64,000 nucleotides of DNA from Echinarachnius parma (taxonomy: Eukaryota; Echinodermata; Echinoidea; Clypeasteroida; Echinarachniidae): the NCBI GenBank assembly GCA_037951105.1, contig JBAMJV010004336.1:62001-126000 (forward strand), given 5' to 3'. The notes beneath the pieces are model-generated. The model was not told the DNA's origin and did no database searches. It worked only from the letters and a program-made list of their open reading frames with translations. Every line of letters starts with the position of its first letter. Position 1 is the stretch's first letter. Both the position numbers and the translations under genes were made by a program. Of the stretch, positions 1,795 to 40,949 are shown in pieces.

Positions 1795-2612
1795 CTGAAT
1801 GGACAGACAAGAACAAAATAGTAATGAATATTGATATCTGTCTTTCTTTATTCTTCCTCTTATATTCTAAGAAAGGAGGAGCTTATAATTGCTCGAGTGC
1901 AAAAAACATAATTTATCAGGTAATAAAAACATAAAACAATCATGAAATCTCTACTGAGCGTTAACATTATTTTGAACATCTTCATTTCAATTATAACATT
2001 TATTAAAGGGGAGACAAATGCTGGCCTTTTCGCTTACTGTTACTTATAAGTGCATAATTCCCGTCACTTCTAGTCACATATTTCCATGTTTTGACTGAAC
2101 ACTGGAGGGTGCCACGTTTTCTAACGGTTCCATATAAAATGCCATCTGACAACTGACATAGCAGCAGATTCAACAACAGCGCAAAATGTGCAAAAAGTGA
2201 TGAGTGGTTGATACAATGTATATTGTCGTTATCTGATATGTCCACTGGGTGTTGAGTGAAAATTTCAAGTTAAATGGACGTTAAATGGCCGAGTAATGAG
2301 CAAAAATGCAAAGTGATATTCACTAACGCGTTTTGTACACGGTTTTGATGAGCCAGTGGATAATTTAACATCTGAACACTTCAATCGTACATATCTTTTT
2401 AACGAAAGGGAAATTTGAAAAACCGAATCCTGTCCCATGCTTTTATTGTTAATACGATACAACAAGGTATGAGGAAACCACTAGAATTCCAACTGGATTT
2501 TGAGGATTTGGACAATGTTACTAAGTCCCTTTAAGTGATGTACATTTTGTAAATGCATGGTAAGATCCTGCCACTCTGTTGCGGAGGCACCCAATTTGTG
2601 AATGGTAGTTAC
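1795..2612 (-). other. ABL intron 9
   Basis: 818-bp intron with GT/AG ends. It contains a TTAA-ended MITE (2186-2534). The rest is AT-rich with nothing recognisable. Confidence 0.85.
2186..2534 (+). mobile_element. MITE family B, copy 1 (left-truncated)
   Basis: Matches the family also present at 27438-27826 and 28697-29085 (shared core GTGATGAGTGGTTGATACAA). It ends in AAGTCCCT followed by TTAA at 2531-2534. The first part of the element is missing. Confidence 0.85.
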
Positions 2613-2799
2613 CTGCATCATTAATACTGAGGACATCCTTAGTTCTAAGGATGTCAGGGTCGCTGTTCTGCGCTCGCTTGACGCTTCTCTTCTTGGCGGG
2701 CAGACTTGGTGGGTCTTTGCCGTGTCTGTGCAGTGACTTCTCTACCTCCTCACTAATGCTACTGTTCTGGAACATGTTGTTCATCTCCTCATGGCTCTC
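2613..2799 (-). CDS. ABL: ABL exon 9 (kinase end and start of tail)
   Basis: Codes for residues 573-634 plus one base of Val635. It holds the last kinase helix (HEEMNNMFQNSSISEEVEK), which in ABL forms the helix I region that receives the myristate, then a basic stretch with KKRSVKR that could serve as a nuclear localisation signal. The acceptor is GCTTGCAG; the donor is CAG then GTAACT. The first two residues are Glu-Ser. Family members have Glu-Ile here, and the intronic copies of this exon also read Glu-Ile. Three acceptor-side copies lie upstream. Confidence 0.93.
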
Positions 2800-2890
2800 C
2801 TGCAAGCACAAACAAACACAATCATTATAATAAAAAAATCTTTTTAACAGCATTACACCAAAGCAAATACAAAGTATGGTAGGTGTACTA

Positions 2891-3334
2891 CACATCGGCA
2901 CTGTTTTTAATATCGGCACACCGCGTAATATTTGTTTTTGCGCGTGTTGTGAAAAATCGCGCATGTGATGATGCGCGCTACCCTTAAAAACTAAACTGGT
3001 CGAAATTTTGAGGAGAAATAATGCGTAGATCGTCCGCTACGAGTAAATTTGTGAAATGATGCCAATAAAATTAAACATCGCACAAGAAATTTGGAGTTGC
3101 GTGCATTGTCAACGAGAGTTGAGGGGGTGCCGGTATTAAAAACACTTCGAACTTGTGAAGCCAAAAAACCACGCGCGCGTTCGAAGGCGCTATCTCAAAA
3201 TGTAATTAATACATCGCAAATCTGATCATCGCATCGGAATCTGCACTATTTTCTCAATGTGTGAGTACAATTTCAAGAAATTTGTACAATTTTTAAGTCT
3301 TAAACTGTCGGAAATGTTTTAGTGTGCCGATGTG
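2891..3334. mobile_element. MITE with CACATCGGCAC inverted ends
   Basis: Bounded by CACATCGGCAC at the left and its inverse GTGCCGATGTG at the right, about 444 bp, with internal inverted CGGCAC and GCCGGT motifs. It sits between exon 9 and the first partial copy of exon 9. Removing it leaves about 200 bp between them, the same period as the other copies, so it inserted after the exon array formed. Confidence 0.75.
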
Positions 3335-3374
3335 GGGGTCACTCAATCATATATCCTTGCTGAGCATGTCCAAG

Positions 3375-3445
3375 ATTTATTTCTACCTCTTCACTGTTGT
3401 CAAGAAACTGTAATGAATCGTATTGTTCATCTCCTCATGAATTTC
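3375..3445 (-). pseudogene. Partial copy of ABL exon 9 (copy 1)
   Basis: Begins after an intact CCTGCAG acceptor and reads EIHEEMNN in the exon 9 frame. It degrades after about 60 nt and meets a GTAGAA that could act as a donor. It has the family-typical Ile at the second residue, where the functional exon has Ser. Confidence 0.85.
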
Positions 3446-3579
3446 CTGCAGGCAAACGATGTACATTGTATATATGAATCTTGTAAATAAGTTCTTTAAA
3501 TGCATTAATTTGAGCAATTGTGGTATAGCAATTAAACTATCGAGAAGCACACAGACAGAATGTCTTCGCTGGGTGCTTC

Positions 3580-3647
3580 TAAGATTTCTCAACCTTTTCA
3601 CTGGAGCATCTGTTTTGGAACATGTTGTTCATCTCTTTGTGGATCTC
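3580..3647 (-). pseudogene. Partial copy of ABL exon 9 (copy 2)
   Basis: Acceptor-like TTTCAG then a copy reading EIHKEMNNMFQN, which shifts frame near TGCTCCAGTG. It contains GAAAAG then GTTGAG at the place where the other copies have GTAGA. Confidence 0.85.
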
Positions 3648-3734
3648 CTGAAAGTAGAGACATACAAATCTTGTAATGAAATCTGTTAACTGCATTATAA
3701 GGAAGCTACCATGAATTACATCTTCACTGAGAGT

Positions 3735-3806
3735 GTCCCAAGATTACTCTACCTCCTCACTGAAGCTACTTTTCTGAAACATGTCGTAAATCTCTCCATG
3801 AATCTC
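3735..3806 (-). pseudogene. Partial copy of ABL exon 9 (copy 3)
   Basis: CTTGCAG acceptor then a copy reading EIHGEIYDMFQKSSFSEEVE and a stop. The copy ends at GAGGAG then GTAGAG, again where a donor could be. Period to copy 2 is 159 bp. Confidence 0.88.
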
Positions 3807-3932
3807 CTGCAAGAACAAACATACAAATCATGTTACTACTAGTGTTCTCGGTTTTTATCAAAAATAGTTTCTTTGATTACTCCTCAATGCAGAATACGTC
3901 AATAGTGGAAAGAATACTTGAGTGCAACTTAC

Positions 3933-4123
3933 AGTGAAGCCAGGTCTGTCCGCAGGGTTCCACTCCCAGCATTTGAGCATGAGTTTGTAGACGTCTGTGG
4001 GGCAGCCATCTGGCCTCTCCATGCGATACCCCTGCTCCAGCTTGCCATACACATGCTGCAGCTCAACACCGGGGTAGGGGGAACAACCATACGTCGCTAT
4101 CTCCCATAGCAGAATCCCAAATG
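3933..4123 (-). CDS. ABL: ABL exon 8 (kinase C-lobe)
   Basis: Codes for residues 509 (completed) to 572 (191 nt, ends in phase 0). It reads [12 protein letters not shown], the [12 protein letters not shown] segment, [10 protein letters not shown], and the [11 protein letters not shown] motif with the conserved Arg that pairs with the APE Glu. The acceptor is TTTTTCCAG; the donor is ACT then GTAAGT. The exon extends past the end of vertebrate exon 8 as I recall it, so this intron position is shifted by about a dozen codons. Upstream are four copies of the acceptor and 5' part, two of them with an exact 127-bp period. Confidence 0.95.
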
Positions 4124-4155
4124 CTGGAAAAAGATCATATTTGTATTGATACAGA

Positions 4156-4250
4156 TTAATAAGATAGCTTGTCATACACATGCTGTAGCTCAGCAAAATG
4201 GTAGGGGGAACAACCATACGTCGCTATCTCCCATAGCAGAATCCCAAATG
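4156..4250 (-). pseudogene. Partial copy of ABL exon 8 (copy 1)
   Basis: Starts at 4250 after the same TTTTTCCAG acceptor as exon 8 and reads [17 protein letters not shown] before the similarity drifts. It lies exactly 127 bp upstream of exon 8. The duplicated unit includes the intronic acceptor region. Confidence 0.92.
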
Positions 4251-4282
4251 CTGGAAAAAGATCATATTTGTATTGATACAGA

Positions 4283-4377
4283 TTAATAAGATAGCTTGTC
4301 ATACACATGCTGTAGCTCAGCAAAATGGTAGGGGGAACAACCATACATCTCTATCTCCCATAGCAGAATCCCAAATG
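4283..4377 (-). pseudogene. Partial copy of ABL exon 8 (copy 2)
   Basis: Second 127-bp unit, starting at 4377 with the same acceptor and nearly the same bases as copy 1. The two copies resemble each other more than exon 8, so copy 2 probably came from duplication of copy 1. Confidence 0.92.
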
Positions 4378-4409
4378 CTGGAAAAAGATCATATTTTTGT
4401 CGATACAGA

Positions 4410-4954
4410 TTAAAGGGGTAGTTTAGTTTTGGTAGAGAGGGCGCTGCACATCACAATTTTTTTGTGAGGTAATGAAAAACTGAATGTCGAATTTGAGAGA
4501 ACATGCAATTTTAATGGCAGAATAAACTTTATTTGGTCAAAATCGACCCAGAAACGGCTGAAATATCAATAAATATATCTGATCTTATAATTATTTGGGG
4601 CCCAAATAATTAGATGATTTTTAGAATTTTTTTTTTTAAATGCTTGCACTTTTTCAAAAATTTTCAAAAGCGTTTTTTAAATAGTTGTTGATGATCTCGC
4701 TATTTAATCATTATATCAAAAAAACATCACATGCATAATTTTGTATGAAAAATGGTTGAAACCAATGTCTTTTAAAAAAGTGCCCTCTTGTGTTTGAATG
4801 GCTCTTTTTTAATGATAACAGGCTTTTTACTTAGTCGTTTGTAATTTTGTATACCTTTCGAGCATGGTGGAGTAATAACTATTAGTTTATAATGTTACTG
4901 TGCAGGTTTTAGCTACTTAAGTTCAGCCTTACCAAAACTAAACTACCCCTTTAA
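4410..4954 (+). mobile_element. MITE family A, copy 1, with TTAA target sites
   Basis: About 545 bp with terminal inverted repeats (AGGGGTAGTTTAGTTTTGGT and its inverse) flanked by TTAA on both sides. It interrupts the third exon 8 repeat unit: uninterrupted units read through the same point (CAGATTAATAAGATAGC). The internal sequence matches copy 2 at 40260-40802. TTAA duplication is typical of piggyBac-type transposases; no transposase is encoded here. Confidence 0.88.
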
Positions 4955-5103
4955 GATAGCATGCCATTCATATGCTGTAGCTCAACACCGGTGTGTCTCG
5001 AAAAGCAGAATCCCAAATGCTAGAAAAATATAATGTTTTTACTTATTGAGATTGAGCTTGTCATAGAGCAGTTTTATGTTGCTATTTCCCAAAGAAGAAT
5101 GCC
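4955..5103 (-). pseudogene. Decayed partial copies of ABL exon 8 (copies 3 and 4)
   Basis: Two further acceptor-side fragments, starting at about 5019 and 5103, keep pieces such as CATTTGGGATTCTGCT with substitutions and gaps. They are older than copies 1 and 2. Confidence 0.7.
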
Positions 5104-5444
5104 AACAACTGAACAATATTAGGATAAAAGTAGATAGTTCTATCTAATAATTGTAAACAAATATTTTAGGTTATATGAGTAAGTTTGCAAATTAAGCCTA
5201 AAATATTTCAATCAAACCGCCTACTAAAACACTAAATGGGCTTATCAGTGATTTGTATGCTAAAGTAAACTAAAAATTGACTCCAAATTCAAATTGAAGT
5301 CTGCCAATCCATAAATGAAGTCTTTCTAAACAAAGTAATTTACGATCAAACTAGTCCCTAAAAAGGGTCAAGATACGTTGTTTTCATAGATAGGTGGTCT
5401 TAATGTACAAATGGTTGCTAAAGCAGGTTTGAAATATAACTTAC

Positions 5445-5629
5445 CCCAGGCATCTGACTTGTTGGAGAACTTGTAGAATGCGAGACTCTCTGGAGCTGTC
5501 CATTTGATAGGGAACTTTGCCCCTGCCTGCGCTGTGTAGATCTCCCCCTGGACCATACGAGCCAGTCCAAAGTCTGCTACCTTTACTAAGTGATGCTCAC
5601 CCAGCAAGCAGTTCCTAGCTGCTAGATCC
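5445..5629 (-). CDS. ABL: ABL exon 7 (catalytic loop, DFG, activation loop)
   Basis: Codes for residues 447 (completed) to 508 plus one base (185 nt). It contains RDLAARN with catalytic Asp448, VADFG with Asp466, and activation-loop Tyr478 in GEIYTAQAG (human Tyr393), then [10 protein letters not shown]. All spacings from Lys356 equal the human values, so there is no indel in the core. One oddity is that the motif usually read SDVWAFG is SDAWAFG here (Ala507). Two acceptor-side copies lie upstream: a good one from 5801 and a decayed one near 5900-5985. Confidence 0.96.
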
Positions 5630-5699
5630 CTACAACAGACAATGGATAGGAGAACAAAAAACAGAAGTCAGGAAAGGTCTGAAGGCTATGAAATCATTT

Positions 5700-5801
5700 G
5701 CTGAGGTGGTAGATCTCTCCCTGGACCATACGAGCCAGGCCAAAGTCTGCTACCTTCACTAGGTGATGCTCACCCAACAAGCAGTTCCTAGCTGCTAGAT
5801 C
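5700..5801 (-). pseudogene. Partial copy of ABL exon 7 (copy 1)
   Basis: Copies the acceptor and the first 95-100 nt of exon 7 at high identity ([20 protein letters not shown]), including the catalytic loop Asp and DFG. It has one G fewer after the acceptor, so splicing in from exon 6 would shift the frame. Period 172 bp. Confidence 0.92.
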
Positions 5802-5899
5802 CTACAACAGACAATGGATGGGTGAAGTTGAAAGGAATATTCAGGCTCTAAAACCCCAAAAAGTATAAATGAAAGATCTAGAGCATATTCTGTCCTTTG

Positions 5900-5985
5900 A
5901 TTGGGCAGTGTGTACAGTCCCAAGTCTGCTCCCTACACAGGTTAAAGCTAACACTGTACGTACATCCTAACTGCTACAACAAACA
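5900..5985 (-). pseudogene. Decayed partial copy of ABL exon 7 (copy 2)
   Basis: Fragments such as AGCAGACTTGG and the TGTTGTAG acceptor remain in order. No usable frame. Confidence 0.5.
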
Positions 5986-6067
5986 AGGATGAGGATCCCA
6001 ATGAGCTCCAAATGGATTGATAGTTCAATGTGTTTGCTCTACCAATCTTGCCACACCACATCCACGT

Positions 6068-6260
6068 GCATACGTAACCAGAGGACAAGCCCTCTCCTGT
6101 AGCTCTCGCTGCTTAACCCGTTCCTTACTAGATTTTGCTATCGCCAAAACAGGAACCACAAGGTTCCCGTAGGCAATAGGATTAAGTAGCCATGTAGCTA
6201 AAAGGCAATGGACACAGAGATAGGTGCCAGTGTCAATGCAAGTGCTTTATGCACATAGGT
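6068..6260 (+). repeat. Diverged fragment of tRNA-SINE family T
   Basis: Resembles the 3' part of the SINE at 32216-32520 (ACCAGAGGAC, CCATGTAGCTAAA, GAGATAGG blocks). It is interrupted by a short TTAA element at 6113-6185. Confidence 0.6.
6113..6185. mobile_element. Short TTAA element family S, copy 1
   Basis: Starts TTAACCCGTTCC and ends with GGATTAA. See the family description at 21373-21452. Confidence 0.65.
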
Positions 6261-6354
6261 AACAGGAGAATTCATAGTTTTGACTTTGAACTCTACTCCT
6301 ATCTGCACTCTAATTGCATTAGAGTAGTGAAAGTCAAACAAAGCCTTACTTTAC

Positions 6355-6532
6355 CTATGTATAAAGCTGTTCTTCTCTAGATAGCTCATGCCAAAGGCTA
6401 TTTGTGTGGCCACGTAGAGCAGAGTGACGGCAGGCAGTGAGGTCTCATCATTCTCTCTCAAGTACTCCAGCAGGTTGCCATAGGGCATGAACTCGGTCAC
6501 GATGTAGAATGGCGGCTCCCTGGTACACACAC
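6355..6532 (-). CDS. ABL: ABL exon 6 (gatekeeper and hinge to catalytic loop)
   Basis: Codes for residues 388 (split) to 446 and two bases of Arg447 (178 nt). It reads [16 protein letters not shown], with the gatekeeper Thr400 (human Thr315), the hinge, a [10 protein letters not shown] segment and the helix E region [17 protein letters not shown], and ends FIH before the HRD Arg. A threonine gatekeeper is typical of ABL and leaves the pocket open to ATP-site ligands (family knowledge). The acceptor is TTGCAG; the donor is AG then GTAAAG. A decayed copy of the middle of this exon lies at about 6780-6885. Confidence 0.96.
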
Positions 6533-6779
6533 CTGCAATAATTATAAAAATTGTATCTTATATAGCGCTGTTCACTTCATATCACAGCGCTTACAAGTGT
6601 AGCAATGAATACATTGATAATATCAAAGAAAAAATGCATACAAATATAACACATGTATCACAGAAAAAGTAAGGATTTTTAGTGTCTTTGCTACATTGAA
6701 AATGTTCCTAATATGTTATAATAGTAGCAAAAATTTAGTTTAGTCAAACTATGCAACAACAGATTTACAATTAATTAGA

Positions 6780-6885
6780 TTCTTCATCCCAAAAGCTATT
6801 TGAGGAGTACAGACTAGAGTAAGAGTGAGTAGGGAAGTCTCATCATTCATTCTCAATTATTCAACAGGTTGACATACATGTATGT
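6780..6885 (-). pseudogene. Decayed partial copy of ABL exon 6
   Basis: The plus-strand blocks CAAAAGCTATTTG, TCTCATCATTC and CAACAGGTTGACAT follow exon 6 order (CCAAAGGCTATTTG, TCTCATCATTC, CAGCAGGTTGCCAT) with many changes. No coding potential. It is the only trace of duplication for this exon. Confidence 0.7.
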
Positions 6886-6929
6886 ACTTCTTTAAAGTTT
6901 CAAATGGTCTTAATTTGACCCAAACAATC

Positions 6930-7005
6930 AACCCATTCACTTCGGAATTCTAAAATCACCACACAGACTTTGTCCAATGGGTTCCCGTAAGCAACCGGTT
7001 AAAAT
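6930..7005. mobile_element. Short element family S, copy 2 (decayed)
   Basis: Contains AACCCATTCACTTCGG, an AGACTTTG block and GGTTCCCGTAAGCAACCGG before GTTAA, the order of the family S consensus. Confidence 0.6.
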
Positions 7006-7054
7006 ACACAAAATGAATGCTGTTTGAATGGAAGGGCATCACCATGATTCTTAC

Positions 7055-7139
7055 CTAGTAACTGGACCAGATTTGGATGCTTGATGTTCTTCATGACCGA
7101 TGCTTCTCGAAGGAATTCATCCACCCGCATGTTCTCTTC
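7055..7139 (-). CDS. ABL: ABL exon 5 (kinase helix C)
   Basis: Short exon of 85 nt coding for residues 360-387 and the first base of Gly388. It carries helix C; Glu371 in [10 protein letters not shown] lies 15 residues after Lys356, the spacing expected for the salt-bridge partner. It ends with KHPNLVQLL. The acceptor is TGTCCACAG; the donor is G then GTAAGA. The 85-nt size equals vertebrate ABL exon 5 as I recall it. This is the only internal exon for which I find no partial copy in the flanking introns, which may relate to its small size. Confidence 0.95.
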
Positions 7140-7849
7140 CTGTGGACAAGAAGACATTAAATAAAAAACAATGAGAATTAACAGTTATATTAAACAAGCT
7201 CAACCACAAATCACGATGCTTGAAATCAAACAACTCAATTTTTGACTCTACTTTCACTTGAACGTAATGGGATTTCATCCACATATTATTATTCTTTGTT
7301 TGACACATACAAGCAGGCCAATTTGTTGACATTAAATACATGTACGATCTGAACTCCCAATATCCACGATCAAAAGTATAAGAAGCGAGTGTACGATTTG
7401 CTACAACTTTTTAAAGTAATAGAGCCTTTCAGAACCACACTTCCCAACTAATATAAAGTGTATTTCCTGAATTAGATTAAACATCAACAACCACATTTCT
7501 GGGCAGTAATGCCATCAAGGAGCTTTATAGCTTAATGGTAAGAGCACTGGTCTAGTAATCTCAAAGACATAGGTTTGGTTTTCAGAGAGGCCTAATTTTC
7601 TTCACTCATTTTTTATTTAACATATTAATAAAAAAAGAAACTCCTTACAAGATTCCTTTTGGAATGGTAGATCAAAGGTATGTAATATCTACTTGGCCAT
7701 AATGGACATCAGCTATTAACTGAAAGCAGGTATTTTACTTCATTGAAATGAAATAAGTACATAAGTCCTTGGATAGAGTATAATTTTGACAACTGATAGA
7801 AAGGTAAATAGTTGACAGAAATGGGGGGGAAAAAACAAAAAGAGCTAAC

Positions 7850-8122
7850 CCTGAGTGTTTTGACGGCTACGATCTTGTTATGTTTCTTCCAGATGGCCTC
7901 GTACACCTCCCCGTACTGCCCCCCTCCCAGCTTGTTCTTCATGGAGATATCGGTCCTCTCTATCTCCCACTCATCCGGCAGTGGTGAGACACCATAGATG
8001 ATGGGTTTGTGCATCTTGGCTGCCGGATAGCGCAGAGTGGTGATAAGCCCGTCAGCATCTTTGCAGTGGTGATGAACTAGCTCTGCTATCGTACCAAACC
8101 GGCTCTCGGTCGTTACGTAAAC
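7850..8122 (-). CDS. ABL: ABL exon 4 (end of SH2, linker, kinase N-lobe start)
   Basis: Codes for residues 269-359 (273 nt, phase 0 to 0). It contains the end of SH2 ([14 protein letters not shown] and [10 protein letters not shown]), then the linker with IIYGVSP. Tyr311 there corresponds to human linker Tyr245, whose phosphorylation releases autoinhibition. The kinase N-lobe follows, with glycine loop [11 protein letters not shown] (333-343) and VAVK, where Lys356 is the ATP-anchoring lysine. The acceptor is GAATACAG; the donor is AGG then GTTAGC. As far as I recall, the 273-nt length equals vertebrate ABL exon 4, so the intron positions look ancestral. Two partial copies of its 5' half lie upstream. 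Confidence 0.96.
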
Positions 8123-8204
8123 CTGTATTCGATAAGAGAACAGTGTTTGAAATAACAGTTTGATTAACTTGAAATACACAATTTACTAAAGAAAACAAGG
8201 ATCT

Positions 8205-8314
8205 AATTTGTACATCTTGGATGCAGGTTCGCGTAGGGCGGACATGAGCCCATGCGCATCTTTGCGAACTAGCTCTGCTACCATACAAAACCGGCTCACG
8301 GTCGTTAAGTAAAC
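8205..8314 (-). pseudogene. Partial copy of ABL exon 4 (copy 1)
   Basis: Copies about the first 110 nt of exon 4 from 8314 (TTAACGACCGTGAGCCGGTT and GGTAGCAGAGCTAGTTC blocks), but with frame changes. The acceptor is weak (A-rich instead of pyrimidine-rich). Period 192 bp. Confidence 0.85.
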
Positions 8315-8399
8315 CTTTTTTTAATATTAGAGAACAGCAGACAGAAATAAATATTTGATTATTAAACTTGAATACAAAATTAATGAGTGAAAACATTTG

Positions 8400-8513
8400 T
8401 ATGACATGGGCATGTTGCTGCCTGGTAGTGTATGGTTGTTATGAGTCCAAACACATCTTGTGGTTTGCTGGCTCTGCTGTCGTACCAACCCAGCTTGCGG
8501 TCATTACTTAAAC
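8400..8513 (-). pseudogene. Partial copy of ABL exon 4 (copy 2)
   Basis: Second copy, starting at 8513 after an intact GAATACAG acceptor, reading through GGTACGACAGCAGAGCC to CAGGCAGCAAC. Early frameshift and stop. Period to copy 1 is 199 bp. Confidence 0.85.
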
Positions 8514-8619
8514 CTGTATTCAATAAGAGAACAACAATTAACTTGAATACACAATTAAAGACAGAAAACATCGATTAAAAAGACAACAACAATACAAAAG
8601 GAAGACAGAAGAATAGCTT

Positions 8620-9960
8620 AGCGCAGAGATAAAGGGCACTGGCCTGGATTGCTCTCACTGTCTCAAACCCTAACTATTACCGTTATCCTAGAACTAACTC
8701 TTACCCTAACTATATCTGAACTATCCCTACAAAACTTTCCTTCGGAACCACAGTTGATTCTGTGGTGATACACCCTGCCAAAGCTCTAGATAAGATTTCT
8801 TTCACTGCCTCTAACCATAATCCTTATAGTAACTCTAACCCTAACTATATCTGAACCATAGCAACAAACCTTTCCATCTGAACCACTGTTGATTCTGTAG
8901 TGATAGACCATGCCATCAAAGCGCAGAGATATAGAGCGTTGGCCCGGACTGCTCTCACTGCCTCTAACCATAATCCTTATACTAACTCTAACCCTAACTA
9001 TATCTGAACCATAGCAACAAACCTTTCCATCTGAACCACTGTTGATTCTGTAGTGATAGACCATGCCATCAAAGGGCAGAGATATAGAGCGCTGGCCCGG
9101 ACTGCTCTCATTGCCTCTAACCATAATCCTTATACTAACTCTAACCCTAACTATATCTGAACCATAGCAACAAACCTTTCCATCTGAACCACTGTTGATT
9201 CTGTAGTGATAGACCATGCCATCAAAGCGCAGAGATATAGAGCGCTGGCCCGGACTGCTCTCACTGCCTCTAACCATAATCCTTATACTAACTCTAACCC
9301 TAACTATATCTGAACCATAGCAACAAACCTTTCCATCTGAACCACTGTTGATTCTGTAGTGATAGACCATATGCCATCAAAGGGCAGAGATATAGAGCGC
9401 TGGCCCGGACTGCTCTCACTGCCTCTAACCATAATCCTTATACTAACTCTAACCCTAACTATATCTGAACCATAGCAACAAACCTTTCCATCTGAACCAC
9501 TGTTGATTCTGTAGTGATAGACCATGCCATCAAAGCGCAGAGATATAGAGCGCTGGCCCGGACTGCTCTCACTGCCTCTGACCATAATCCTTATACTAAC
9601 TCTCACGCTAACTATACTATACCCTGCTATAGCTACAAACCTTTCCATCTGAACCACTGTTGATTCGGTAGTGATAGACCATGCCATCAAAGGGCAGAGA
9701 TATAGAGCGCTGGCCCGGACTGCTCTCACTGCCTCTGACCATAATCCTTATACTAACTCTCACGCTAACTATACTATACCCTGCTATAGCTACAAACCTT
9801 TCCATCTGAACCACTGTTGATTCGGTAGTGATAGACCCTGCCATCAAAGCGCAGAGATATAGAGCGCTGGCCCGGACTGCTCTCACTGCCTCTGACCATA
9901 ATCCTTAAACTAACTCTCACGCTAACCATATCTATACTATACCCTGCTATAGCTACAAAC
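8620..9960 (-). repeat. Tandem array of the 3' part of ABL exon 3 plus its donor
   Basis: Downstream of exon 3, its end (from SESSPGQRS to the SDGK codons), its donor and the next roughly 70 nt of intron are repeated. The marker GCCATCAAAG recurs at 9840, 9683, 9526, 9373, 9218, 9065 and 8912. Two older fragments follow near 8777 and 8620. The spacings are 157, 157, 153, 155, 153 and 153 bp. Units contain no acceptor and lack the FLVR Arg, so they cannot encode a working SH2. The coding part is almost identical between units and varies mainly at one R/P codon, which points to recent duplication or homogenisation. The intron part is a TTAGGG-like tract. Confidence 0.95.
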
Positions 9961-10262
9961 CTTTCCGTCTGAACCACTGTTGATTCTGTAGTGGTAGACC
10001 CTGCCATCAAAGCGCAGAGATATAGAGCGCTGGCCCGGACTGCTCTCACTGTCTCTGACCAGGAAGCTGCCATCGATGCCGCTACTGAGCAGGTACTCCG
10101 CTGCGTTGCGTGAGATGGGTCCGTGATACCAGGAGTGCTTCTCCAGACTGTTGAAGGGAGTGACGTAGGTGGAGGGCACCCACCCTGTCTTGCCATTCTT
10201 CAGCTTCTTGGCCTCGCACCACTCCCCGCCCTTGTTGTAGCTCAGGATCCGCACCTGGTCAC
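9961..10262 (-). CDS. ABL: ABL exon 3 (second half of SH3 and most of SH2)
   Basis: Codes for residues 168 (split) to 268. It completes SH3 (GEWCEA at 180-185, GWVPS at 194-198) and starts SH2 at Trp212 (WYHGPISR). The phosphotyrosine-binding FLVR motif is intact at 234-237, so Arg237 should contact phosphate. [12 protein letters not shown] and the VYHYRI strand follow. The acceptor is CCCCTGCAG; the donor is AAAG then GTTTGT, which is weaker than the others in this gene. Compared with the vertebrate proteins as I recall them, the SH3 distal loop is a few residues longer (KKLKNGKTG). The last part of this exon and its donor are repeated many times in the following intron. Confidence 0.95.
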
Positions 10263-12631
10263 CTGCAGGGGGCAAACAATTACACACACTTCATCATTTC
10301 CCCTCATCTGTATTCATCATGTCACTAATTTAGTCAAGACGATCACATTTGGTTTACCATGCATTCGCCATTAACCCCAGCACTAGTATTGTTGGGACCA
10401 GTCAAGCTGGTTCAACCTGTCTGAATGAATGTTTAATAGCCCTAAATTCAATGGATCTACCTAAGTACTGCAACCAAATTAATTGTCTTCATGAGATGGA
10501 AACTGCACTTTCTTTGATCATGAAATCATAAACCCAAGGAATAATAAAAGAGTGATATTTACTCCGTACCACGAACAAATCAAAATCATTAATTTAACCT
10601 AACACAATGATTAGAAATGATTGATGATTGATATGAGTGATTTTCATTCATGAAAACTATTGAAAATATGAATAAATGTCCACACATTTTTATGTTCAGA
10701 AATTCATAACTGAATCTCTCTCTATGAAAGAATATTTGTATGTAGTAAAGAAAACAAGAAAAAAAATAAAATTAACTCTCAGCGCATAAACTCTCCTGAA
10801 ATTTATAATTTCATGAGTGCCAAATCAAAAATAGTGTTCTCTATTGTCTGTACAAAATTCAAAGAGTCACAATATAAACATGAATGCACCTAGCCAATAC
10901 AGGCACATAATGTAGGCCGTGTGAAAACTTTAGATGGATGTATAATTTACCAAGCATGACAGTAACGCAACGCAATCTAAAAGAAAATCTGAGATCTGCC
11001 TGCTTTTGTTTCCCTTTGGTTGCCTCCCTCCACTGGGTGGATTTCATTATGCAGCACCAGACTGAGTATGGATGGCTTGTCCTAAGGGGACAGCTTTATT
11101 CATATCACCACTCGTTCAATATCAACAAACTTTATGAAGTGAGCGTGTTACATTTTTCATTATTGACTCAGGGTGTTTGCTCTGCGTATCAACGAGTATC
11201 CCCTTACATAATTATATTTACACAAACAAAAAAATATTTTTCTATACAACATTGAAATTGCCAGCATATATGTTCACAATATTGTGACAATCATTATATG
11301 AATGATGTTGTTTACTGTGGAAAATTTATGGTAAATAATAAATCATTGGTGCTAAATGAAATCAAACCGTTTGCTTATAGTTACATGTATAACACTTCTA
11401 ACTTATTCAACAGAACGAAAACATAAAATGGCACTCATTTCCAAAAAGGTTTAGAAAGGTATTTCACTACGCAGCTAGTATGTCTTAATAAACAACAGCT
11501 AACATACATGTATGTAATGCTAGGTTTACACCATGTCCCCGGCGGCCACGGCAGTCCCGTTTCAGGCCACCGTGGACAAAACGGGATGGACGTGAGACAA
11601 CACAGGGGGACGGAATGGGCAAACGTGACTGCCGTGTATGCCGGGCCAGATTTTTAAACTGTCAACAAATTTGCCACGGCAACCTAGCAGGCCGTAGTAA
11701 AACGGGGTGAACGCAACAAAACGTGACAGGCCATAACAAAACTTGGAGGCTGTCCGTAGTAGGACGGGAAGACATTCCCGAAATCTCACGGTCCTTTCCC
11801 GTCCTATTACGGACAGCCTCCAAGTTTTGTTACGGCCTATTACGTACTGTCATGTTTTGTTGCGTTCACCCCGTTTTACTTTGGCCTGCTAGGCTTCTCA
11901 TCCGCACCGTGACTGCCGTGGCAAATTTTTTGACAGTTTAAAAATCTGCCCGGCATCCACGGCAATCGCGGCCTATCACGTTTGCCCATTCCGTCCCCCA
12001 CATTGTCTCACGTCCATCCCGTTTTGTCCACGGTGGCCTGAAACGGGGCTGCCGTGGCCGCCGGGAACATGGTGTAAACGCACCATCAGTGGGGGGAAGG
12101 GGCTCTTCCCCCCACGGCCCGTCACGGATACCGTGGTAGACCATGATAGACCGTGAGAAAACTTGGCAAGACCTATAAACAAAACTTGAATACAGAGGGA
12201 AAATTTGTCAAAATCTCACGGCGCACTACGTTTTGGGCAAACGGGGCTGCCGTGGCCGCCGGGGACATGGTGTAAACCTAGCATTAGGGGCAAATTACAT
12301 CCTGGAGGAAGGTTTGTATTTTCTTATCACTGCCCTAATGTTATAATTTTACTTTTAAAATATACAACTTTGTTTCTTAGGAAGTATAAAATAAACTGCA
12401 CGTTTAGTTGGGTGAGGGTGAAAGGGCATTAAGTTGATTTTGGGTTATATTCTCATTTCTCAGTCTGTGTGATGCCAGTTAATTTGGGGCATATTCATTA
12501 AATATTAAAAAGAGCTAAATTTGATATCTACAAGGTTCCCAAACTTTAAAATGTGATTATCTGAAGGGTACAACAAATGACTTAACTATTTAATAATGAA
12601 ATAATGATGTGGACTTGACTGCAATGCTTAC
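10263..12631 (-). other. ABL intron 2
   Basis: 2.4-kb intron. The exon-proximal 10300-11500 stretch is AT-rich with nothing recognisable; 11517-12285 is a large GC-rich foldback element; 12290-12600 shows nothing. Confidence 0.8.
11517..12285. mobile_element. Large GC-rich foldback element (family H)
   Basis: Ends are a long inverted repeat (GCTAGGTTTACACCATGTCC at the left, inverse at the right) of about 37 bp. Much of the interior is also self-complementary: CTGTCCGTAGTAGGACGGGA near 11750 pairs with the inverse near 11800, and CATCCCGTTTTGTCCACGG near 12013 pairs with the copy near 11570. The CpG-rich interior contrasts with the AT-rich intron. Open frames here are by-products of the repeat. 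Confidence 0.85.
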
Positions 12632-12820
12632 CCTTGCGGACGTTGAGTTGGTTCTCCCCACTACCGCTGAAGTCATAGAGGACCACAAAGAGGTCCGGAT
12701 CATGTTCCTCTCCTCCACACACATCCTCCGTAGAGTTCCACCCTGCTAGGTCTGGGGTACCACCGTGGGTTGGAGTGCTCGGCAACGGCCGGGATTGGAT
12801 CGTCTCAGTTGGTGTGTTAT
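12632..12820 (-). CDS. ABL: ABL exon 2 (cap linker and first half of SH3)
   Basis: Codes for residues 105-167 plus one base of codon 168. It holds a polar, Pro-rich cap linker with an RPLP motif, then the start of the SH3 domain with the hallmark LYDF (152-155) and the RT-loop region. It begins after a good acceptor (CTGTTTACAG type, 12821-12822) and ends at a donor reading G then GTAAGC. The phase-1 to phase-1 structure fits exon 1 and exon 3. The SH3 domain would clamp the SH2-kinase linker in the assembled inactive state and bind PxxP ligands when open (family knowledge). The upstream intron contains two good and one decayed partial copy of this exon, described separately. Confidence 0.92.
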
Positions 12821-12898
12821 CTGTAAACAACAGAAAAAACACAATAGTAAAGGAGCTTTAAATACATTTAGTACACTTTATACACATATTTTGCATTA

Positions 12899-13040
12899 CT
12901 GTGAAGTCACAGAGGACAATAAATACAGTAGACAGCACACACATCTTCTGTAGAGTTCCACCCTGCTAGGTCTGGGGTACCACCGTGGGTTGGAGTGCTC
13001 GGCAACGGCCGGGATTGGATCGTCTCAGTTGGTGTGTTAT
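12899..13040 (-). pseudogene. Partial copy of ABL exon 2 (copy 1)
   Basis: Starts at 13040 after an acceptor identical to that of exon 2 and is nearly identical to exon 2 for about 100 nt (residues 105-138). It then becomes diverged, and the donor end is missing. Period exactly 220 bp. With an intact acceptor it could compete with exon 2 in splicing, but I see no good donor. Confidence 0.93.
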
Positions 13041-13117
13041 CTGTAAACAACAGAAAAAACAATTTCGTAAATGAGCTTTAAATACATTTTGTACACTTTA
13101 TACACATATTTTGCATT

Positions 13118-13260
13118 ACTGTGAAGTCACAGAGGACAATAAATACAGTAGACAGCACACACATCTTCTGTAGAGTTCAACCCTGCTAGGTCTAGGGTAC
13201 CACCGTGGGTTGGAGTGCTCGGCAACGGCCGGGATTGGATCATCTCAGTTGGAGTGTTAT
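13118..13260 (-). pseudogene. Partial copy of ABL exon 2 (copy 2)
   Basis: Second 220-bp unit starting at 13260, with a few more substitutions and a changed acceptor (TGTCAATTACAAG). Confidence 0.92.
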
Positions 13261-13344
13261 CTTGTAATTGACAGAAAATACCATAGCAAAGGAGACTTTA
13301 TTTTAAATAATATAAACAATAAGAACTATTTTAAACTGATTTGA

Positions 13345-13505
13345 TACTATAACTCCTCTGTGATATCATACATGTAGAGCCAACATACAGTAGATCACAC
13401 ATAATATCCTCTATAATGTTCCACCCGTACAGCCAGGTTTGGGGTACATAGTGGACATGGGGACAAGTGTTATGCAGGTTATGTAATGACTCTGATGGGA
13501 TATAA
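13345..13505 (-). pseudogene. Decayed partial copy of ABL exon 2 (copy 3)
   Basis: Keeps the order of the blocks ATATCCTC, GTTCCACCC, CCAGGTTTGGGGTAC with gaps. No coding potential. Confidence 0.65.
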
Positions 13506-14040
13506 ACTGATGGAGGGATAGAATTCCAGATGAGGAGTTTCTGTTTGTCAAATCATCACACAATAATTGTGCTTTCAACAGTTTTTTTCCTCTAGATCAT
13601 GTATATACATGTACATGTACCTATATTGTATTCATACACAATGAAGCAATACATTCCCTAAAAGTTATTCTGAAATCACTTTCTCATTTGAATCCACAAA
13701 GTCAAAGTGTTAAAGCCTTGAATAAGCCTAACTCTTACGTCAAGGGACACTCGATCCCCACTACTGCTCTCAAGCCAGGAGTTACAGGTATACATGGGAG
13801 CTCTTGACTACTCAGTAAGATTAGCATCTTGTTTGTTACATGATGAGTTCTGATCCAAAGGGCAGTCTCATTAGGACGCTTGATCCATGAGATGGACAGA
13901 AGTGTACATGTATGCCTTGGATTAACAGAGGTCACTGGACTGACCAACGTCACTGGACTGACCAAGGTCACCGAGTCTTCTAGTAACCAGGCTTTCAGTA
14001 TAAAAATAATAATCATAATAATAACTTCATTTATATTATA

Positions 14041-15708
14041 TGGGCAATTCCACGAAAAATGTTACCCAAGGATGGAAAAATGAAACTCATGGGACAGCCT
14101 TGTTAACTACTGGATAGTAATGAGGAAGGACCATATTTTGATGACTAAAGGAAAAAAGTTTGAAATTCAATGCAGAATATTTTTTTGGCCATTGAAGTTG
14201 GGACAAACATTTTATGTATTACCCACCCAAAATGATGAAATTTGCATCCGTTGTTTGTGAAATAAAATTTTAAAATATGGATCACTTCAGAACAATAATT
14301 CTACTTCTAATGTCTTGTTTATGCTTTGTTTTAACATCATAGAAAAGGAAATTGTGTAAAAATCTTTACTTTTTGAAAACTGTTATTGGATAAAATCTTG
14401 ATTCTTACAACATTGATGTGTAATGTCCGTGACGTTTTAGATATAAAAGTTTTTGTAGAAGCAGAAGTCCTAATTCAATTTAATTCAAAATTCATTTGCA
14501 AAGCTAGAATGTTATATCATAAAGTATATCAAGAGCATTTACTAAAATATTTGATGGTTTGTCCAGAATGGCGTCACGGACATTACGTCACGGCTGCGTC
14601 ACGGACATTACAAACACAGTGAAAAGTATAAAAAAGCAGAGCAAAAAAATATCAAGCATTATTTTCTCATGTAAATGTCTTATTTTAGCCAAGAAATAAG
14701 ATAATCCCAAGTAACAGGGGCACTACTACCTTCCTGGTTTAAGTTTTAATAAATTGTATCGTTAATCAGATAGTGAACTTTGAGTCAGTACTCTGAACTA
14801 TTTATACAATTAAATTCATTGCTTAATTTGAACATGCATGTCTCAATAATCAATAAAGACTTGACTATAACTTACTGGGAGGAGAAAGAGATGGTTAAAT
14901 CTCATAAGTATGATCAAATTGCAAAAATTATACTTTTAGTCCATGATTTTCCATGTGTTATGCCCATGATGTACACAACTTTTTTATATTTTACAATTTG
15001 TTGGCACAAAACAGCATTGTACCTGATTAAAAATGTATAATATTGTTTTAAATAGTTGAACATCTGGTTTACTGCACATTCTGTTGAAAAAATTCAAATT
15101 TTACAATAATTTTGGAAAAACTTATTCAAATTTTTAAAATAATTTTTTGCTAATTGAAAAAAAATTGAAATATAATTTTTGTTCTCAAAACTGTTTGATT
15201 ACATATCAAATGTAAAATTAAAAAAGTTTCATGCACAATGGAGCATTTTTTGCGGGTTATTTCTGAGTTTAGAAAAAGTGGACAAAAGTGTAATGTCCGT
15301 GACGCTGAAAATGTAATGTCCGTGACGCAATGTTTTGTTGTCTAGATCACATATGCCTGACCCGTTTCCCCCAAAACAACTTGGATTCAATTCATCATTG
15401 CCTGTTCTATAATTAAATACCTAAATCACCTTTGTGAGGTCTCAGAACTCACAGACTTTTGCAAAGATGTATATGGATGCAAAAAGTCATGTCCAAAAGA
15501 TGTAATGTCCGTGACGGCGCACATTTTGCAGAATTACTCAGTAACGAATTGGATAAATGTTCTGAAACTTTTTTTGCATACTAAACCAGGATATTGCTTT
15601 GTAATAAAAATACAAGTTAGACATTAGTTAGAGGTATGAATTAGTAGTGGCATTGGAAAGTCATGAAAATTCTCTGATTTGTAATGTCCGTGACGCTGGA
15701 GTTGCCCA
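14041..15708. mobile_element. DNA transposon C1 with iterated 15-bp motif, TA target site
   Basis: Ends TGGGCAATTCCACG and, inverted, TGGGCAACTCCAGCG, flanked by TA. Inside, GTAATGTCCGTGACG occurs about seven times in both orientations (near 14421, 14572, 14597, 15291, 15313, 15503 and 15681), a pattern expected of transposase-binding sites. It is inserted into a low-complexity repeat whose halves (ACTTCATTTATATTA and TAGCGCTTTTTGC) flank it. No transposase frame is visible. A partial inverted copy is at 39181-39610. Confidence 0.85.
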
Positions 15709-16061
15709 TATAGCGCTTTTTGCAAAAAATTGATACAAAGCGCTTCAAAAAGAACAAAAACAAATACAATCTACAAATCATACAAACAATAACTTAACAT
15801 AGTTCAATAGATAGGCCATAAAAATGACAAATATAAATTTTAAAAGTGGTAATTATAAAAATGTAATAGAAGATTACAAAAGCGGAATTTGTATTATGAC
15901 TTTCTAAAAAATTCAGGTCCATCACACATCACTGAAAGTTCAGCTTTCGAAAGTTATGATATTAAAATCTGTAAGCATAATAATTAAGAGTACTAAGTCT
16001 AAGCGACTGCAGTGAGCTACATGTAGGTCTACGTTTAGTGCCCCAAACTATGAGCAACAAG

Positions 16062-19737: not shown

Positions 19738-20500
19738 GTGTGTCACTAGGGAGCAGAGTGTGTCTGGTCTGGTCTACCAGAGAGAATAATGGGATACGAG
19801 GCAAGGGGTACGCTGGGGGCAAGCAAGAGTGTGTGTAGTCTATGAAATGGGGCCCAAAACCACTGAGTATGGGAGATCATGATAATAAGATAGGCGAGAG
19901 GCAAGGAGGAGGAGATGTCTGGTCTACCAGCCAGAATAGAAGATGATAATGTGAGCGGAGGCGAGGAGGACGCTAGGGGCAAGCGATAGGAGTGTGGGTA
20001 GTCTATGAAAGGGGGCCCAGAACCCACTAATGATAATGTGTCCGAGGGGGTGAGAGGCAAGCGAGAGGAGTGTGTCTAGTCTACCAGTCAGAATGGAAGA
20101 TGATAATGTGAGAGGAGGCGAGGATGACGCTAGGGGCAAGCGATAGGAGTGTGGGTAGTCTACGAAATGGGGCCCAGAACCACTAAGGCTAGCATGGGAG
20201 ATCATAATGTGAGAGGGGGTGAGAGGGGGTGAGAGGCAAGCGAGAGGAGTGTGTCTATCTCCCAGTCAGAATGGAAGATGATAATGTGAGAGGAGGCGAG
20301 GTGGACGCTAGGGGCAAGCGATAGGAGTGTGGGTAGTCTATGATATGGGGCCCCAGAACCACTAAGCATGGGAGATCATAATGTGAGAGGGGGTGAGAGG
20401 CAAGCGAGAGGAGTGTGTCTATCTCCCAGTCAGAATGGAAGATGATAATGTGAGAGGAGAGGAGAGGAGAGGCAAGGGAGAGAGGAGTGCGTCTACCAAT
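19738..20500. repeat. Minisatellite, period about 156-178 bp
   Basis: Four to five units marked by GAATGGAAGATGATAATGTG and GGGTAGTCTATGAAATGGGG. Units differ by indels. Open frames on both strands are by-products of the repeats. Confidence 0.85.
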
Positions 20501-39180: not shown

Positions 39181-39610
39181 AGGGCATCTCCAGCGTCACG
39201 GACATTACAAACAGACATTATTTTCATGACTTTCCAATGCCATTACTAATTCATACCTCTCCCTAATGTCTAACTTTTATTTTGAGTACAAAGCAATAGC
39301 CTGGTTAAGTATGCAAAAAAAGTTTCAGAACATTTATCCAATTTGTTACTGAGTAATTCTGCAAAATGTGCGCCGTCACGGACATTACATTTTTTGGACA
39401 TGACTTTTTGCATCCATATACATCTTTGCAAAAGTCTGTGAGTTCTGAGACCTCACAAAGGTGATTTAGGTATTCAATTATAGACAAGACAATGATGAAT
39501 TGAATCCAAGTTGGATTTTGTGAAACGGGCCAGGTATATGTGATCTAGACAACAAAACGTTGCGTCACGGACATTACATTTTCAGTGTCACGGACATTAC
39601 AGTTTTGTCC
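39181..39610 (-). mobile_element. Transposon C2, partial
   Basis: Inverted copy of the right part of C1 (14041-15708), with the GCGTCACGGACATTAC motif near 39195, 39373, 39563 and 39588. Only one terminus is present. Confidence 0.85.
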
Positions 39611-40169: not shown

Positions 40170-40259
40170 TAAAACCATGACAAAAACCATTGTTAGTTTA
40201 TTAAATTACATGGAATTTAATATCTTACAATATAACATCAAACTATGTACTGTATATCA

Positions 40260-40802
40260 TTAAAGGGATAGTTGATTGTTGGTATAGGGGGGCACTTCAC
40301 AAAAAAAAAAATTTGTGAGATAATGAAAAACTGACTGTCAAATTTGAAAGAACATATAATTTTAATGACAGAATAAATTTTATTTGAACGAAATCGGTTC
40401 AGAAACGGCTGAAATATCCATAAACATATTTTTATTTTAAAATTCTTCACTGGGGGATATTTTGACTTTTTAGAAAAAAAAATTAAAATGCTTAAAGACT
40501 ACTTTGAAATAAATCTGAATAAGTTTTTAAAAAGTTGTTGATATCTCTATTGAATCATTATTTTAACAAAACATTAAATGCACAATTTTGTATGAAAAAT
40601 GGCTAAAACCAATTATTTTTTTAGAGAGCGCCCTCTTGAGTTGTAACAGCTCTTTTTGAATGATAACAGGGGTTTTACTTAGTCGTTTGTAATTGTGTAT
40701 ACTTTTCGAGCATGGTGAAGTTATAACTATCATTTTGTACCGTAATGGTGCAGGTTTTGGTTACTAAAGTTAAGTTTGACCAATACTCAACTATCCCTTT
40801 AA
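40260..40802 (+). mobile_element. MITE family A, copy 2
   Basis: TTAA-flanked, 543 bp, ends AGGGATAGTTGATTGTTGGT and inverse. Internal blocks such as AGAAACGGCTGAAATATC match the copy at 4410-4954. Confidence 0.88.
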
Positions 40803-40949
40803 GTGGCACACAAACATCATTAAGTTATTATTCTTCCTCTTTAGCTTGAAAATGAAAACTGTATTTTTTGTCATTGATTTCCTCTTTAAATGGTCATAAT
40901 TTTGAAGGACCAGTGATTGCATTTCACATAAAGGTAACTATGTACACTC

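Follow-up and report, generated by a model that had tools for sequence, protein, structure and literature searches.

What kind of process leaves partial copies of an exon in the intron beside it, and why would it do so at nearly every internal exon of one gene? The question is raised by the ABL gene in a 64,000-nucleotide stretch of the Echinarachnius parma genome (hereafter, the window; G000:C4334:62001-126000, from a genome of 1.2 Gb in 14790 contigs). We consider it likely that the arrays of partial copies at the ABL exons are duplications of the “mirage” type, arising as a by-product of frequent local direct duplication in the gene regions of this echinoderm. The name, taken from the Adh3 case, has been applied in amphioxus globin genes to minisatellite-like repeats in which an intron-exon boundary is duplicated (PMC3087553).

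All coordinates of the gene refer to the plus strand of the window, and ABL itself, with its exons and their copies, lies on the minus strand. Exons 2-10 were placed by their splice sites. Exons 2-9 join into a stop-free open frame of 529 residues, and with exon 10 (430-1794, the last exon, at which self-comparison finds no array) the frame contains one stop in all. Three of the exons match the kinase family in a profile comparison, and from its residues we take the gene to be ABL, with SH3 and SH2 parts.

The preliminary description of this DNA had reported partial intronic copies at seven of the eight internal exons, and both BLASTN (each exon with 60 bp on either side against the gene) and a self-comparison of the window bear this out, with E-values from 2.9e-73 to 4.9e-7 for the copies. 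Such copies are local and direct, and lie in the adjoining intron. Each holds 24-117 bp of exonic sequence and none holds a whole exon. The most exonic sequence in any copy is 117 of 273 bp (exon 4), and the greatest proportion is 105 of 178 bp (exon 6). Four weak copies (the far copy of exon 2, the copy of exon 6, the old copy of exon 7 and the first copy of exon 9) outscore 300 of 300 dinucleotide shuffles. For exon 5 (7055-7139), exon comparison and shuffles give no supported copy, as the score was reached by 89 of 300 and 190 of 300 dinucleotide shuffles. When seven arrays are placed at random in 1801-13600, they touch a mean of 3.06 exons, versus the observed 7 of 8 (p = 0.0002).

The arrays of exons 2, 4, 6, 7, 8 and 9 lie upstream of their exon and only that of exon 3 lies downstream. 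The acceptor is included in all the upstream arrays but that of exon 6 (i.e., at exons 2, 4, 7, 8 and 9), and the exon 3 array carries the donor. It had been claimed that the copies always include an exon edge; this is so for six of the seven arrays and fails for exon 6, where only the exon interior (6378-6482) is matched. In the aligned ABL copies, AG is kept at 10 of 10 acceptors and GT at 7 of 8 donors. Copies in the window haplotype are 71-95% identical to their exon and are therefore of different ages. The unit also differs from array to array (127-220 bp where it is clearest), which agrees with the proposal of independent local duplications rather than one event.

Exon 2 (12632-12820, part copied 12716-12820) has two acceptor-edge copies at 12936-13300 with a period of 220 bp (95% and 89%, AG in both), followed by the far degenerate copy at 13396-13454. 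Exon 3 (9961-10262, part copied 9961-10061) has its donor-edge array at 8620-9898, with seven full copies and further partial ones of a 153-bp unit detected by Tandem Repeats Finder (TRF) and by comparison. An open reading frame runs across several units of this array (153 = 3 x 51), which we take as chance. Two old acceptor-edge copies of exon 4 (7850-8122, copied from 8006) occupy 8207-8570, with a period of 201 bp, identities of 74% and 86% over the aligned parts, and AG in both. The old interior copy of exon 6 (6355-6532) is at 6776-6876, 71% identical and without a recognizable edge. Exon 7 (5445-5629, part copied 5536-5629) has an acceptor-edge copy at 5709-5826, 93% identical and 54 bp from the parent segment, with a period of 173 bp, and an older degenerate copy at 5915-5995. 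Two acceptor-edge copies of exon 8 (3933-4123, part copied 4039-4123) lie at 4166-4413 (127-bp unit by TRF, 95% and 90%, AG in both), and the remnant of a further copy at 4958-5053 lies past an inserted element at about 4410-4955. This element, which has short inverted ends, is missing at that position in the second haplotype; a copy of it is present elsewhere on the contig of that haplotype, and another is at 40259-40803 in the window. Lastly, exon 9 (2613-2799, copied from 2735) has three old acceptor-edge copies at 3407-3833 (76-84%, AG in all).

Could the copies be a product of the assembly? The contig set is large and holds both haplotypes of several genes, and arrays of this kind are difficult to assemble, so that an assembly or haplotype-merging artefact has to be weighed. 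For ABL, the second haplotype is found on contig C5972, whose long stretches of alignment with the window, at 89-99%, are broken up by many insertions. It has arrays at the same seven exons, which makes simple assembly error unlikely: copies 70-97% identical at the same exons on two contigs are not created in that way. Moreover, in another gene of our sample (L024, below), an exon-anchored array recurs in the second haplotype, L026. We consider such an artefact extremely improbable.

The two ABL haplotypes also show how fast the introns change. Copy numbers in the window haplotype and the second haplotype differ for exon 2 (2 and 1), for exon 7 (1 and 3; weak extra copies of these two exons were sought in the window haplotype only) and for exon 3 (seven full copies plus partial ones, and one full copy plus fragments). 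They are alike for exon 4 (2 and 2), exon 6 (1 and 1) and exon 9 (3 and 3), and close for exon 8 (2 plus the remnant, and 2). None of the seven introns from exon 2 to exon 9 has the same length in both haplotypes. Over exons 2-9, on the other hand, 16 of 1590 nucleotides and none of the 529 amino acids differ, with the real splice sites and the coding sequence intact in both. The protein is thus constant while the introns of its gene turn over quickly, and the arrays are no artefact of one contig. Neither haplotype offers an empty-site allele for a first ABL copy, since both have copies at each of the seven exons.

The preserved splice-site dinucleotides raise a further possibility, namely that the copies are functional, either as alternative or mutually exclusive exons or as splicing regulators. 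The AG and GT counts above speak for it. However, the haplotypes vary in copy number and the old copies are degenerate. All ABL copies are also partial, so that at most one of the two original splice sites goes with each, which further weakens this explanation; we regard it as very unlikely. Duplication of whole exons in ABL, as in the mutually exclusive type with both splice sites, was rejected since no exon is copied whole.

The structure of the arrays has a precedent. In amphioxus globin genes, mirages occur at either exon edge, many but not all copies keep AG or GT, and the mechanism is called unclear (PMC3087553). BflGb6 has units of 150-160 bp and BflGb9 units of 157 bp, two haplotypes of BflGb6 have 6 and 3 units, and reverse transcription PCR found regular splicing undisturbed (PMC3087553). 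A mirage is also described in amphioxus PGBD5, with TnC cited as a further case (PMC3902484). The ABL arrays resemble these in several respects: tandem copies span a splice site (six of seven arrays here, exon 6 being interior only); both sides occur (the donor at exon 3, the acceptor at exons 2, 4, 7, 8 and 9, and both in the kinase genes considered below); and haplotypes differ in copy number (exons 2, 3 and 7). There are also differences. The reported host is a cephalochordate whereas ours is an echinoderm, although the taxon is outside the structural definition, and here several exons of one gene are affected at once, with an array at about half of the 83 exons sampled. The amphioxus Adh3 units are shorter, at 10-72 bp, and the Adh3 mirage is reportedly unstable in somatic tissue. 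The ABL arrays have those structural features of mirages that can be tested. The earlier statement that no such system had been described thus does not hold for the structure, which amphioxus mirages share; it may hold for ABL itself, for which no specific search was made. Our literature searches, in which subscription journals were thinly covered, found no earlier report of exon-edge arrays in echinoderms, nor did they turn up a printed account of mirage-type arrays in an echinoderm at roughly half the exons sampled.

Is ABL special in this respect? We compared it with a sample of 20 kinase regions (19 of 10 kb and one of 6.2 kb) and with CCT genes, sampled as two gene regions only. An array was counted if a pair was at least 60 bp long, at most 1 kb apart and had an E-value of at most 1e-5. 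Two regions (L017 and L026) were left out before counting because they are second haplotypes of L016 and L024, and the total counts cover 21 regions, i.e., ABL and 20 other gene regions (kinase and CCT). As the kinase exons were defined by Pfam matches, tblastn matches and one SH2 match, their edges are approximate and further exons will have been missed. To a first list of 31 kinase exons, 30 hand-chosen ones were added. The final tally counts as an exon the weak tblastn match at L024 6790-6900, and omits matches judged to be array copies (among them one of two in L024, one of two in L030, and others in L020, L022 and L029). Three exons (L034 4018-4170, L034 4960-5090 and L035 4760-4960) were positioned by eye from open frames, and we take them to be CCT exons from motifs that we recognized.

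The other genes show the same arrays, and an ABL-specific cause was therefore rejected. A local copy is present at 18 of the 31 non-redundant kinase exon matches. Copies are found on 20 exon sides, acceptor and donor sides alike, and 19 of these reach the expected edge within 35 bp; one is interior only and none includes the wrong edge. Outside ABL, 32 of 75 exons in the 20 regions carry an array, versus 17.0 expected (p = 0.0002), which gives no support to the idea that ABL is special. With ABL included, the numbers are 39 of 83 exons versus 20.1 expected under random array placement (p = 0.0002). In one kinase gene, two kinase-exon-like matches (L024 1291-1572 and 2223-2399) lie in one tandem array, possibly a larger exon duplication.

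The preliminary description had also proposed a duplication process that starts at exons. Counted by array, 39 of the 90 arrays in the 21 regions touch a known exon, where 21.8 are expected (1.79 times as many; odds ratio 2.4, p = 0.0002); without the low-complexity CCT array at L035 5156-5864, the count is 38 of 89, with 21.2 expected. Over ABL and the other gene regions together, contact with exons is thus about 1.8 times that of random placement. This does not show a start at exons, as 51 of the 90 arrays touch no known exon, some of them perhaps lying on unrecognized exons. That non-exonic arrays are this common, together with partial copies at nearly all internal ABL exons and a whole copy at none, speaks for a by-product of general local duplication.

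Much of the pattern may follow from geometry and survival. If part of an exon is duplicated in tandem and the copy comes to lie in the intron, the duplicated segment must cross a splice site, and edge inclusion is therefore mostly a matter of geometry. Exon-anchored pairs would diverge or be deleted on one side only, which could yield an excess of up to a factor of about two with no exon preference. The excess also shrinks with the youth of the arrays, as survival of a conserved exon parent would have it: below 85% identity, 21 of 51 arrays touch an exon (11.2 expected, ratio 1.88, p = 0.001), and at 95% or more, 3 of 8 do (2.1 expected, ratio 1.45, p = 0.34), eight arrays being too few to tell.

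Several observations pull the other way. Of the 39 arrays with at least 85% identity, 18 still touch an exon (10.7 expected, ratio 1.68, p = 0.005), and longer survival should matter less in this class. In our presumed non-genic control, which consists of 48 kb of the window plus regions L011 and L012, the window at 16-64 kb has only 3 arrays in its 48 kb versus 4.2-5.9 per 10 kb in gene regions, and L011 and L012 are intermediate, with 2 arrays per 10 kb each. Placement may therefore be tied to exon-dense DNA. Finally, a pair with a spacer may have begun as a tandem duplication, one copy of which was afterwards shortened.

These points bear on the most serious competitor, in which duplication starts preferentially at exons or splice sites, e.g., because edges that are rich in GC, carry positioned nucleosomes or are transcribed suffer breaks or disturbed replication. 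All seven ABL arrays touch an exon, and the G+C content of ABL exons 2-10 is 0.46-0.58 versus 0.40 across 1796-12631. The overall excess, its persistence at 85% identity and the scarcity of arrays at 16-64 kb would fit as well, as would the median periods of 180 and 185 bp (similar for exon and non-exon arrays), in which a nucleosome-sized unit is only a lead. However, the exon-free arrays and the fall of the excess among the youngest ones argue against it, and the excess is of a size that survival and detection alone could give. We therefore regard a preferential start at exons as possible but unlikely, while the excess at 85% identity and the low density at 16-64 kb leave room for a real preference, perhaps a modest one for exon-dense DNA. 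A bolder version, which we hold just as tentatively, is that local duplication is concentrated at exon edges throughout the genome, in echinoderms and amphioxus alike, by an exon-tied process (chromatin, transcription or splicing) that leaves about half of all internal exons with a shadow of their own edge. If true, non-vertebrate deuterostomes would have in this process a general supply of new splice sites and introns.

How might the arrays arise as by-products of local duplication? Error-prone repair or templated synthesis would duplicate about 80-150 bp, placing the copy adjacent to the original or within about 160 bp; break repair is a plausible initial step. A segment over an acceptor gives a copy upstream of the real exon and one over a donor gives a copy downstream, as observed. 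The real exon has both splice sites and the partial copy one, so the copy would be spliced out and tolerated. Direct repeats may then grow and shrink by unequal exchange, which would account for the copy-number differences between haplotypes. Copies in the intron would decay while the exon parent is conserved, so that exon-anchored pairs would stay recognizable longer than intron-intron pairs, inflating the exon share of arrays.

The structure of individual pairs gives some view of these steps. A repeat-spacer-repeat form (i.e., the shortest-period pair is shorter than its period) is found in 60% of the arrays at exons (n = 25) and 52% of the others (n = 56), a split that uses the initial exon list without the later additions. 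Among hand-picked pairs, nine are spaced (repeats of 78-140 bp, spacers of 11-160 bp) and three are seamless. Outside known exons, L013 has a pair of 105 bp at 531-635 and 796-900, identical at 105 of 105 positions and with a 160-bp spacer. This is a very young spaced duplication, and some pairs therefore seem to be born spaced. A seamless tandem pair of 293 bp (87%) at L016 3430-4030 corresponds to a single unit in L017, the second haplotype, and its copy number is therefore polymorphic; the arrays of L016 and L017 are not the same. At ABL exons 2 and 7, one haplotype has one copy and the other has more, with about the same period, a pattern that unequal exchange within the original pair of repeats would be predicted to leave.

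Human repair-mediated proximal duplications are a possible counterpart of the initial step. According to Pace et al. (2009, PMC2671141), their median length is 147 bp, they lie within 5 kb, and pairs within 50 bp were dropped as tandem duplications; few of the 824 events have exonic donors (4 partial exon/intron, 2 full exon, and 2 intron/full exon/intron). Length around 150 bp and a donor-copy distance within 5 kb are thus shared with our pairs; here, in contrast, exon-edge donors are common, arrays expand further and pairs less than 50 bp apart are included. Intron gain by tandem genomic duplication (PMC4974935) likewise involves tandem duplication inside a gene, whereas our copies lie inside existing introns and no new intron came to light, none having been sought.

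Exon-boundary repeats have been reported in a few amphioxus genes, and their presence at about half of the sampled exons in another phylum widens their scope. Together with the unequal copy number of the two ABL haplotypes, this makes the mechanism measurable: existing echinoderm genomes and RNA-seq data would allow counts of birth rate, of exon preference and of any contribution of the copies to new splice sites or to intron gain. Partial exon-like copies beside real exons may also mislead gene finders.

Other repeats were noted in the same DNA. In intron 2, window 11524-12079 holds a large imperfect inverted repeat (602-column alignment, 79%), a stretch with no aligned counterpart in the second haplotype. 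The same lack of an aligned counterpart applies to about 1.6 kb at 14036-15726, with repeats of the short motif GTCCGTGACG; window 15280-15707 recurs inverted at 39182-39610. A 157-bp minisatellite at 19786-20459 touches none of ABL exons 2-10, and its counterpart in the second haplotype has more bases and many repeated matches. Amphioxus was rejected as the source of the DNA, since its mitochondrial code and gene order are those of an echinoderm; the GFP family also gave 0 matches, a weak negative as no control gave a match. The mitochondrial contig carries cox1, tRNA-Arg (tcg) and genes that we take from their residues to be nad4L and cox2, in that order. In cox1, ATA codons stand at presumably conserved isoleucine sites and the single AAA at a presumably conserved asparagine site. 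ATA for isoleucine is described as common to echinoderms and hemichordates and AAA for asparagine as echinoderm-specific, and the sea cucumber Stichopus naso has the same gene order.

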